The notes under the pieces are model-generated. The model had not been told where the DNA came from. It saw only the letters and a program-made list of their open reading frames with translations, and ran no database searches. Positions 33,576 through 37,793 of a DNA stretch of 64,000 bases are shown here, piece by piece; position 1 is the stretch's first letter; every line of letters starts with the position of its first letter. This stretch comes from Paucibacter sp. KCTC 42545 (GTDB lineage: Bacteria; Pseudomonadota; Gammaproteobacteria; Burkholderiales; Burkholderiaceae_C): contig NZ_CP013692.1 of assembly GCF_001477625.1 (NCBI RefSeq), positions 2,356,001-2,420,000 of the forward strand, read 5' to 3'. A program made the translations under genes and the position numbers.

Positions 33576-34369
33576 ATCAGCTCCCCACCGCACACGGCAA
33601 TCGACTGACCATTCATCGCGCCAGCGGCCGGGCGGGCCAGCCACAGCACGGCATCGGCAACTTCGGCAGGCTGCACCAGGCGGCCCTGCGGGTTGCTGGC
33701 CGCAAAGCCGGCTAGGGCCTGCTCGGGCGTGCGGCCGGTCTTTTGCACCAGGGTGTCGACGGCGCGGCTGATGATGTCGGTTTCGGTATAGCCCGGGCAT
33801 ACCGCATTGACGGTGATGCCGCGCCGCGCTACTTCCAACGCCAAGGCACGGGTCAAGCCCAGCACGCCATGCTTGGCGGCACAGTAGGCTGCCACATAGG
33901 GGTAGCCCGTCAGCGCGGCCGTGCTGGCGACATTGATGATGCGGCCAAAGCCCTGCTCCAGCATCGCGGGCAAGACTTCACGGCTGCACAAAAAAGTGCC
34001 GGTCAGGTTGACACCCAGCATGGTCTGCCACATGTCCAAACTACTGCGGTGCAGAGGCGCGGTTTGAACCTGGCCGGCGTTATTGACCAAAATGGCTGCT
34101 GGCCCGAAAGCCCCTTGGCTCACTGCACCGAAGGCCTGCTGCACGCTGGCCTCCTCGCTCACATCCACGGTTTGTAGGGCCAAGCGGCCGGGTGCTTGCA
34201 AAGCAGCGGCTTGCGCTTGCAGGCGCTCCAGGCTGCGGCCCATCAAAGTGACATTGGCGCCGGCAGCCAGCAAGGCCTGAGCGATGGCCGCCCCGATGCC
34301 GCTGCCGCCGCCGGTGACGACGGCGTGCTTGCCGTGCAGAACAAGCTCGCTAATTCCTTCCTTGCTCAT
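33572..34369 (-). CDS. SDR family oxidoreductase (3-hydroxyacyl-CoA dehydrogenase-like)
   Basis: A 265-residue short-chain dehydrogenase. The NAD(P)-binding [10 protein letters not shown], the NNAG motif in VNNAGQ, the catalytic Ser in NVASTAAL and the YCAAKHG active site are all intact. It probably oxidises the 3-hydroxyacyl-CoA formed by the neighbouring hydratase. It overlaps the upstream monooxygenase/reductase gene by ATGA and the downstream MarR gene by GTGA, so its expression is coupled to both. Confidence 0.9.
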
Positions 34370-36711
34370 ACGCCCAGCGCCTTCAAATCCTGCGCCTGTG
34401 CCGCCGCGCCCTGGGTGCGCTGGCGCTCAAACTCGCGCTCCAGCTGCTGCTTGCCCGCCAGATAGGGCTGCGGCCAAGCCAGCCCGACCGGGCCGGTGTA
34501 GCCAATGCGCGCGGCTTCGGTCAGCGTCCATGCCGGGTTGGCCAGATGTGGGCGGGCCACGGCGCACAAGTCCGCCCGGCCGGCCGCAATGATGCTGTTG
34601 ACATGGTCGGCCTCGGAGATGCCGCCCACCGCCATGGTCGGGATGCCGACGCGGTTGCGAATGCTCTCGGCGAAAGGGGTTTGCCACATGCGGCCGTAGA
34701 CCGGCCTTTCCTGCTTGCTGACCTGGCCGGAGGACACATCGATCAGGTCCGCCCCAGCGGCCTTAAAGGCTGCTGCGATCTCCACCGCATCTTCGGGCGT
34801 GGTGCCACCGGCCACCCAGTCATTCGCGGAGATGCGCACCGACATGGGCCGCTCCGCCGGCCACAGAGCCCGCATGGCCGCAAACACTTCGAGCGGGAAG
34901 CGCAGGCGATTGGCCAGGCTGCCGCCGTAATCGTCCTGACGCTGATTGGTCAGGGGCGAGATGAAGCTCGAGAGCAAATAGCCGTGGGCGCAATGCAGCT
35001 CAAGCCAGTCGAAACCAGCGGCGGCGGCGCGGCGGGTGGCGGCACAGAAGTCGGCCTTGACTTGGGCCATTTCGGCCAGGCTGATGGCGCGCGCGGTCTG
35101 GCTCACGCCCGCCAAATACTGCTGGCTGGAGGCCGACACCAGCGGCCAATTGCCATCGGCCAGTGGCTGATCGGTCCCCTCCCAGCCGACACGGGTCGAG
35201 CCCTTGGGTCCAGCATGGCCCAGCTGCATCGCAATCTTGGCGCTGCTGTGCTGGTGCACAAAACTGACGATGCGCGCCCAGGCCTCGCCTTGCGCATCGG
35301 TGTAGAGGCCGGGGCAGCCGGGGGTGATGCGGGCATCTGCCGAGGTGCAAGTCATCTCGGCAAACACCAGGCCGGCGCCGCCCAAGGCGCGCGCGCCCAA
35401 ATGGGCCAGGTGGTAGTCGCCGGGCAGGCCGTCCACGCAGCTGTATTGCGCCATCGGCGACACCACCACGCGGTTTTTCAGCGTCAGGCCGCGCAAGGTG
35501 AAGGGAGTGAACATGGGCGGAACTGCTGCATGCTCGGGCGCCAGGCCTGCCCGCTCACCCAACCATTGCTCAAAGCCACGCACATAGGCGGGATCACGCT
35601 GGCGCAGGTTCTCGTGCGAGATGCGTTGCGAGCGGGTCAGCAAGGAATAGGCAAATTGCTCCGGGGCCAGGTGCGCATGGCGAGCCACGTTCTCAAACCA
35701 CTCGGTGGAATTGCGCGCCGCATTCTGGATGCGCAGCACCTCGATGCTGCGGCTGGCCTGGTACTGCGCCAAGGCAGTGGGCAAATCGGACGCATGGGCG
35801 GCGATGTCTTGCGCCAGCGCAATCGCATCTTCCAGCGCCAGCTTGGTGCCCGATCCAATGGAGAAATGCGCCGTGTGCGCCGCATCGCCCATCAACACCA
35901 CTGGCGTGCCTTGGGCGTTGACATGCACCCACTGCTTGCACACCACGCGCGGGAAGCGTATCCACTGGGCCGAGCCGCGCAGATGGGCGGCATTGGAGCG
36001 CAGCGAGTGGCCGTCCAGCACCTTGGCAAACAAGCGCTCGCAAAAGGCAATGCCCTCTTCCTTGCTCATGGCCTCGATGCCGGCGGCCTGCCAGACCGCC
36101 TCCGGCGCCTCGACGATGAAGGTTGAGGTGTGCTCGTCAAAGCGATAAGCATGGGCCTGAAACCAGCCCCATTCGGTTTGCTGGAAATCGAAGGTAAAAG
36201 CCTCGAACAAGCGGCTGGTGCCCAGCCAGACAAAGCGACATTGGCGCAGGTCGATGTCAGGCTGATAGGTGGCGGCGTATTTCTGGCGCAGGCGGCTGTT
36301 CAGGCCGTCGGCGGCGATGATGAGATCAGCCTCAATTTCGCCGTCGTCCGGCACATCGGACTCGAAGCGCAGATCCACACCCAGCTCCACGCAGCGCGCT
36401 TGCAGAATCTGCAGCAATTGCATGCGCCCGATGCCGCAAAAACCGTGGCCGCCGGAGCGCATCGTGCGCCCCTGAACATGCACCTCGATATCGTCCCAAT
36501 GGTTGAAAGCCTGCAGAATCGCATCGGCCGTTTTGGCGTCGGCCTCACGCATGGCGCCGAGTGTTTGATCCGAGAACACCACGCCCCAACCGAAGGTGTC
36601 ACCGGGCTTGTTGCGCTCCAGCACAGTGATGTGATGGCTAGGGTTTTGCTGCTTCATCAGCAGGGCGAAATACAGGCCAGCCGGGCCTCCACCAATGCAG
36701 CAAATGCGCAT
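34366..36711 (-). CDS. 2-aminobenzoyl-CoA monooxygenase/reductase (bifunctional)
   Basis: A 781-residue two-domain flavoenzyme. The N-terminal half is a class A flavin monooxygenase with [16 protein letters not shown] and [20 protein letters not shown]. From about residue 390 it is an old-yellow-enzyme-type reductase ([39 protein letters not shown]). This architecture is that of the enzyme that hydroxylates and then reduces the ring of 2-aminobenzoyl-CoA, described from Azoarcus evansii. Salicylyl-CoA 5-hydroxylases share the fold and are the main alternative. kynU and the CoA ligase nearby favour anthranilate. It is the first gene of the leftward operon. Confidence 0.92.
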
Positions 36712-36790: not shown

Positions 36791-36903
36791 CTTTCCCGCA
36801 GCGAAAATGCGTCGCACACTTGTTGCTTGCTTGTTGGGATTAACCGACACCACGCCCCGCCACGCCTTGTTAAGGTGCCGACCGTTCAAGCCAAGGGAGA
36901 CTG

Positions 36904-37141
36904 ATCCTAGATCCGACAGTTGACCGCTTGTCTTGACTTGGGAACCTCAATGCCTACTACCTTTGTTTCGTTCAAGTCCCCTCACCATTCGGGTGACAGC
37001 GCTACGCACCCGCCTGGCTCGCTAGGAGGCACGCAGTCTGCGTTGCTTCTCCTCGTGGGCATTAGCCCACTTCGTCGGCGCGCCTTGCCCGCGCGCCCCC
37101 TAGCGACCCCTCCGGGCGCGTCCAACTGCCGGAGCTAGGAT
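36904..37141 (+). other. Structured leader or MITE-like element abutting kynB
   Basis: Bases 36905-36922 pair with 37123-37140 (16 of 18). That pairing covers the kynB Shine-Dalgarno sequence GGAG (37131-37134) and runs into the start codon. Inside lie further nested stems: 37005-37011 with 37114-37120 (6 of 7), 37019-37026 with 37099-37106 (8 of 8), a hairpin GTGGGCATTAGCCCAC (37055-37070) and TCACC/GGTGA near 36982-36996. A reading frame from 36950 ends at 37138, one base before the kynB ATG. Either a regulatory RNA or a small mobile repeat fits. Confidence 0.6.
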
Positions 37142-37793
37142 GATGACCACACCAGCAGCGCCAACAAGGCCACAACGCCTCTGGGATATTTCGCCCCTGG
37201 TGTCACCGCAGTCGCCGATCTTTCCGGGTGACGAGCCCTACTCACTGCGCTGGACCGCCCGGCTCTCGCCCGAGTGCCCGGTCAACCTCAGCGCCCTCAC
37301 CATGTCGCCTCACGTGGGCGCGCATGCGGATGCGCCGCTGCACTATGCAAACGGCGCGGCCAGCGCGGCCGAGGTGGATCTGGCGGCCTATCTGGGCCCA
37401 TGCCGGGTCATCCACGCCATTGATTGCGGCCCCTTGATTCGCATCGAGCATTTGCAGCATGCAGCTGCAGATCTGCCCTCACGCGTGCTGGTGCGCTGCT
37501 GCGAGCGCGCCGATACGCAATGGAACCCCGAGTTCAGCGCCTTCGCCCCCGAGACCGTGGCCTGGCTGGCCGCGCAGGGCGTGCAGCTGATTGGCCTGGA
37601 CACGCCCTCGGTAGACCCTGCCAGCAGCAAGAGCCTGGACAGCCACCAGCAACTGCTGGCCCTGAATCTGCGGGTGCTGGAGAACCTGGTGCTGGACGAA
37701 GTCGCCGAAGGCGACTACGAATTGATTGCCCTCCCCCTCAAACTGGCCGGGGCCTGCGCCTCGCCGGTACGCGCCGTCTTGCGCGAACTTTGA
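37140..37793 (+). CDS. kynB: Kynurenine formamidase (arylformamidase)
   Basis: A 217-residue cytoplasmic metal-dependent hydrolase that removes formate from N-formylkynurenine. The metal-binding motif HVGAHADAPLH (residues 58-68) is the KynB/cyclase family signature. DTPSVDPASSKSLDSH further on is also typical. GGAG lies 5 bases before the ATG at 37140; a second ATG follows directly at 37143. It is the first gene of kynB-kynU-kynA, divergent from the aminobenzoyl-CoA operon. Its ribosome-binding site falls in a large predicted stem. Confidence 0.95.
   Translation: MMTTPAAPTRPQRLWDISPLVSPQSPIFPGDEPYSLRWTARLSPECPVNLSALTMSPHVGAHADAPLHYANGAASAAEVDLAAYLGPCRVIHAIDCGPLIRIEHLQHAAADLPSRVLVRCCERADTQWNPEFSAFAPETVAWLAAQGVQLIGLDTPSVDPASSKSLDSHQQLLALNLRVLENLVLDEVAEGDYELIALPLKLAGACASPVRAVLREL

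Follow-up and report, generated by a model that had tools for sequence, protein, structure and literature searches.

What is the large folded region in front of kynB, and how did it come to lie there? The window is a stretch of 64,000 nucleotides from Paucibacter sp. KCTC 42545, and the region ends at the kynB start codon (Table 1). The first-pass annotation saw a folded leader that would bury the ribosome-binding site and start codon, and it proposed a tryptophan- or kynurenine-responsive switch, translational coupling, or an inserted repeat.

Table 1. Coordinates of the element and of the kynB start region within the window.
Feature	Position	Strand	Remark
Whole 234-bp mobile element	36906..37139	-	conserved structured RNA is the minus-strand reading
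Left 17-bp inverted end	36906..36922	+	
Right 17-bp inverted end	37123..37139	-	carries GGAG (37131-37134) and TAG (37136-37138) here
Target duplication, left flank CTGAT	36901..36905	+	4/5 like right flank
Target duplication, right flank ATGAT	37140..37144	+	contains first kynB ATG
Long covarying stem, first arm	37004..37035	-	
Long covarying stem, second arm	37090..37121	-	
Apical hairpin, compensatory changes	37055..37070	-	arms 37055-37060 and 37065-37070
Original kynB Shine-Dalgarno AAGGGAG	36893..36899	+	separated from start codon by element
Small open frame within element	36950..37138	+	coding constraint absent
kynB, 217 aa, Pfam Cyclase	37140..37793	+	first gene of kynB-kynU-kynA
Element terminal sequence			CCTAGANNCNGCAGTTG

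The folded region at the kynB start

The sequence bears out the pairing that had been described. Bases 36905-36922 are complementary to 37140-37123 at 16 of 18 positions, with exceptions at 36911/37134 (A.G) and 36916/37129 (A.C). GGAG (37131-37134) lies inside this pairing, and the first kynB ATG is at 37140. The small frame runs from the ATG at 36950 to a TAG at 37136-37138, leaving G37139 as the sole base before the kynB ATG, and the TGA duplication is present on both flanks (36902-36904 and 37141-37143). The plus strand of 36880-37170 folds at -110.8 kcal/mol (z = -2.81), and 1 of 200 shuffles was equally good. A closed structure of about 236 bases had been suggested; its stable plus-strand fold stands, and its limits are redrawn, the element proper being 36906-37139.

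The predicted burial of the kynB start is moderate. Averaged over -20 to +12, the probability that a base is unpaired comes to 0.23-0.27 for the window and 0.39 for its sister species (G014), compared with 0.43 in an empty-site model made by joining the flanks and 0.46-0.54 in two relatives free of the element.

A dispersed repeat and its insertion between the kynB Shine-Dalgarno and start codon

The region belongs to a dispersed repeat. With 36904-37141 as query, the same genome yielded another copy, 81% identical. This copy (L164:5001-5234) directly precedes an OmpR-type response regulator gene, whose start is about 20 nt past the element. Matches occur in 11 of 18 genus genomes, with up to 16 in one genome and, in one (G003), 27 bases of one end only. 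In the family, 42 of 250 genomes matched a related copy, with three candidates per genome scored. Excluding ten core matches that lack both ends, the genus and family loci hold 99 two-ended copies, of which 76 are exactly 234 bp and 95 are within 228-236 bp. In public genomes, the left end matched at least 122 times, in at least 120 stretches. Among the matches listed, the right end was located for 90, of which 60 are 230-241 bp; the other 32 of 122 lack a right end and were dropped. Copies outside 230-241 bp and near-identical copies were removed before alignments A2 and A3 were made.

The terminal inverted repeats are 17 bp long across the copy sets, and the flanks have the form N-T-N-A-N', with complementary element-adjacent bases in 90 of 99 copies and a complementary next pair in 97 of 99. 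The outer pair of the palindromic target pentamer varies (AT 46, TA 21, CG 12, GC 11; n = 99); a pair that varies and stays complementary is odd if a protein alone does the recognition. Identical 5-bp flanks surround 40 of 99 genus and family copies, 52 of 90 left-end-scan copies and 6 of 12 inspected model hits (see below), and at the kynB site four of five bases agree.

Complete copies were found in Beta- and Gammaproteobacteria, in hosts that include Thiocapsa, Thiohalocapsa, Methylocaldum, Denitromonas, Azonexus, Rhodoferax, Ottowia, Herbaspirillum and Roseateles. At E <= 0.001, a covariance model (R1) built from the element core hits 90 of the 369 class genomes, with many weak and partial matches among them, and it reaches at least 70 bits in 21 of 369. 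At most eight candidates per genome were scored with R1, so its copy numbers are lower bounds. All 12 strong hits inspected, from 10 genomes, are 233-239 bp long with matching ends. Below about 60 bits the hits are weak and often partial, and many of them may be hairpins with no relation to the element; one in the window's own genome (L331) lacks the element ends. Viral contigs held no exact match to the left-end pattern, the window copy had no similarity match in phages or E. coli genomes, and the one plasmid match is partial, in a Polaromonas plasmid.

Terminal inverted repeats, a target-site duplication, short length, several copies and no transposase gene place the element among MITEs by structure, and we file it there as a variant whose content is a strand-specific structured RNA. 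The earlier suggestion of a MITE-like insertion next to kynB, with ends of about 18 bases and a duplicated TGA, is thereby supported. Some variants are longer (281-422 bp; L195, L208, L219, L243, L247, L280); these keep both ends and have other hairpins or repeats inside. Two short copies of 104 bp (L140:2001-2104) and 122 bp (L151:2896-3017) have perfect 5-bp duplications, so the full interior may be dispensable for movement.

No insertion sequence or transposase with the same 17-bp ends was present among the genus, family and class loci inspected. The PF13701 transposase of IS1380-family elements exceeded its cut-off in none of 18 genus genomes and in 43 of 369 class genomes, namely 6 of 21 with strong model hits and 37 of 348 others. 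IS1380-family copies in the class have the ends CCTAAATTCTGCA (duplications TTTAA, TATAA), CCCAAATCTGGAAGT (duplication CTTTA), CCCAGATAATCC (duplication ATAAA) and CCTGAATCCGTG (duplication AAAAG). They resemble the element in their CCYARAT-like beginning and 5-bp duplications, but differ in the remainder of the end and in the target, which for the element is palindromic (N-T-N-A-N'); no common 17-bp end was found. A candidate of 1693 bp (L274) was set aside; its frames and ends, judged by eye, look like a copy of the element with another insertion sequence nested in it, which we take to be IS1634.

At kynB the element is a newcomer to an existing start region. kynB was located in 16 of 18 genus genomes, and the element precedes it in only two, the window genome and G014. 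In G004 and G006, where the element is absent, the kynB ATG follows AGGAG at a distance of 5 nt. The distance from AAGGGAG (36893-36899) to the first kynB ATG is 240 bases in the window, and the joined flanks read AAGGGAGACTGATGACC, which is an ordinary start. The element was thus inserted between the Shine-Dalgarno sequence and the start codon, presumably in the common ancestor of two Roseateles-group species. The right end places a GGAG 5 nt before the first ATG in the window; the same place in G014 reads AAAT, so this substitute is not common to the sister species. We infer that kynB translation may be weaker, or may now rely on the right-end GGAG or on coupling through the small frame. Such putative translational coupling is possible in this lineage.

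The surroundings of kynB offer two further observations. The sequence GTTGGGATTAACCGACACCACG lies upstream at 36833-36854, and part of it, TTAACCGACACCAC, lies upstream of 14 of 16 kynB loci and is absent in G012 and G017. We presume that GTTGGGATTAACCGACACCACG may be the operator of a kyn regulator, which would put the transcription start before the element. A divergent gene of 781 aa (34366-36711) fuses an FAD-binding monooxygenase domain to an NADH:flavin oxidoreductase domain.

Covariation and the strand of the conserved structure

Copies of the element differ in sequence and preserve its pairing. With 58 copies, 14 of the 26 pairs in the RNAalifold structure had changed on both sides. In a set of 73 copies with greater diversity, the top covarying columns are the long stem (positions 101-132 with 187-218, numbered from window position 36904), the apical hairpin and the ends. 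The minus-strand core of these divergent copies (alignment A3) forms a rod-like hairpin with two-sided changes in 42 of 42 modelled pairs, and 92.8% of cells pair. Its covariation score is 0.687 compared with 0.062-0.157 for slid versions, and none of 500 shuffles scored as high, although the structure was taken from the same alignment, which favours it. A small hairpin at element positions 79-92 was seen by eye, and its chosen register is unsupported (125 of 364 cells Watson-Crick).

Departures from Watson-Crick pairing indicate the strand. Read on the kynB strand, the long stem has 356 A.C cells and 15 G.T cells, while slid controls have 232-427 A.C and 104-212 G.T cells, a ratio between 1.1:1 and 2.9:1. 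Since the controls also have an A.C excess, composition explains a small part of the asymmetry. The element ends have 35 A.C and 8 G.T cells, and the apical hairpin, with 11 of each, shows no asymmetry. Seen from the minus strand, a plus-strand A.C is U.G, a pair that RNA can tolerate. The selected molecule therefore appears from these alignments to be a minus-strand RNA, antisense to kynB. Folding is also better on the minus strand than on the plus strand: this holds for 72 of the 73 copies, with means of -127.0 and -107.0, and for all 154 cores, compared with 67 of 142 flanking controls. One sequence alone could not have shown that the structure belongs to the strand opposite to kynB.

The same structure was kept at the kynB site. 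The copies of the window and G014 differ at 22 positions, 11 of them paired, and both retain 50 of 54 minus-strand pairs, among them 37023/37102, where the two bases have changed in compensation. When the same changes were placed at random, 44.0 pairs were left (P = 0.0001), and 45.2 in the reverse test (P = 0.0037), both for one species pair. Minus-strand structure was therefore kept by both kynB copies after they split. Other pairs of copies at a common site have too few differences to add much.

The element is intergenic. Context genes were called by a simple composition rule, and loci with short flanks or N were dropped. None of the chosen gene frames runs across the element in any of the 140 flanked copies. 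Of 87 plus-strand genes that come in from the left, 39 stop within 5 bases of it, and their stop codon is accordingly often the duplicated TGA or TAA; of 52 genes that come in from the right, 14 stop within 0-4 bases. Among tandem gene pairs, 51 point along the plus strand and 20 along the minus strand, which makes the structured strand antisense to its operon more often than not. This bias is significant in the family set, whose copies are partly non-independent (39 and 13, P 0.0004), and non-significant in the wider set (12 and 7, P 0.36). No promoter-like or terminator-like site was found within the element.

Explanations and comparison with known systems

A stable fold across the start region and a covarying structure, both in front of a tryptophan-catabolic operon, are what a riboswitch or attenuator sensing tryptophan or kynurenine would offer. 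A kyn riboswitch would also be expected to recur in kyn-gene leaders, but the element precedes kynB at 2 of 16 loci. With 14 of 16 genus loci lacking it and the majority of copies lying elsewhere, for example upstream of the response regulator gene, the kyn-specific switch envisaged at first is refuted, by the criterion that the first-pass annotation itself had set. Its structure is moreover selected on the strand opposite to kynB, and none of the Rfam 15 families reached its gathering threshold. The best sub-threshold matches were RF03703 (18.6 of 78 bits) for the window copy and RF01581, a Plasmodium RNA (23.4 of 70 bits, E 0.017), for the copy at L229. We give a sensing role almost no credence: the folded kynB leader, one copy of a mobile element, is probably no tryptophan switch. 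Hardly better placed is a small protein gene carried by the element. Of 76 copies, 84% have no stop codon inside frame +2, and the frame ends at the right-end TAG in most copies inspected. Pairs among these copies, however, have a pN/pS of 0.88 in this frame (element positions 78-218), within the 0.73-1.38 of other frames; the small frame has no Pfam family match, and the front third is the least conserved part. Coding constraint is absent, and we rejected the coding reading of 36950-37138.

Two further readings concern what is selected. A passive MITE could owe its complementarity to transposase recognition and hairpin-templated repair of a DNA palindrome, with RNA playing no part. Hairpin repair can restore palindromes, the ends change yet remain complementary, and the ends, the duplications and the internally deleted short copies with perfect duplications fit this reading. 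A DNA palindrome should prefer neither A.C nor G.T, however, and the ratio is 356 to 15; templated repair gives Watson-Crick pairs, but the kynB copies gained A.C pairs; and interior pairs covary as strongly as the ends. We consider this reading unlikely. It is possible, though we hold it with some doubt, that the structured RNA of about 235 nt, antisense to its operon more often than not, is itself the selected unit, either required for spread in an RNA-dependent, SINE-like manner or serving as a mobile regulatory RNA that host loci retain once it has inserted, as with the two kynB copies.

The reading that we favour, and regard as probable, is a MITE-type copy inserted between the kynB Shine-Dalgarno and ATG, with a rod-like RNA on the opposite strand as its content and selection continuing after insertion. 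The element, 234 bp with 17-bp inverted ends, the target N-T-N-A-N' and no transposase of its own, would have been mobilised in trans by a transposase whose ends are somewhat like those of IS1380 elements. Its entry at kynB, between Shine-Dalgarno and ATG, would date from a shared ancestor of the two Roseateles-group species. Selection on a minus-strand RNA, which we infer to be expressed, would have shaped the copies and, once the element had inserted, continued at the kynB site. In the kynB mRNA, the hairpin would then be the complement of this structured RNA.

The element is apparently part of an undescribed family of mobile structured RNA, and no description of it was found in the open-licence literature. 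Bacterial MITEs are mostly viewed as passive leftovers of insertion sequences. The near-fixed length, compensatory change, RNA strand and range across Beta- and Gammaproteobacteria suggest that some MITEs are themselves structured RNAs, and the covariance model with its many natural variants makes an RNA role testable. The kynB site is a natural experiment, in which an insertion split the Shine-Dalgarno from the start codon and was retained by two species.

In the Bacillus cereus group, bcr1 is a mobile repeat found dispersed in the genome, 147-167 bp long and with a stem-loop fold. The element is like bcr1 in being a dispersed mobile repeat that folds in this way, but bcr1 belongs to another phylum and has another size; it is named or tabulated in PMC3110155 and PMC2267715. 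The review PMC10969869 describes bacterial MITEs as short, intergenic and typically AT-rich, with inverted ends, target duplication, no transposase and transcripts predicted to fold. The element has these features in common except that its core is GC-rich (0.70), and it differs in its conserved interior with compensatory, strand-specific changes, its presence in two proteobacterial groups and its near-fixed length. The Beta-proteobacterial repeat element (BRE) is GC-rich and dispersed, is partly transcribed as an sRNA (bprJ), has traits of mobile elements and overlaps in hosts with the element (Rhodoferax, Polaromonas, Acidovorax, Bordetella), according to PMC3110155. By that description BRE units are 75-91 bp and often tandem, whereas the element occurs as single units of about 234 bp with inverted ends, 95 of 99 copies being 228-236 bp. 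Among open-licence papers, BRE and bcr1 are the nearest systems in print.
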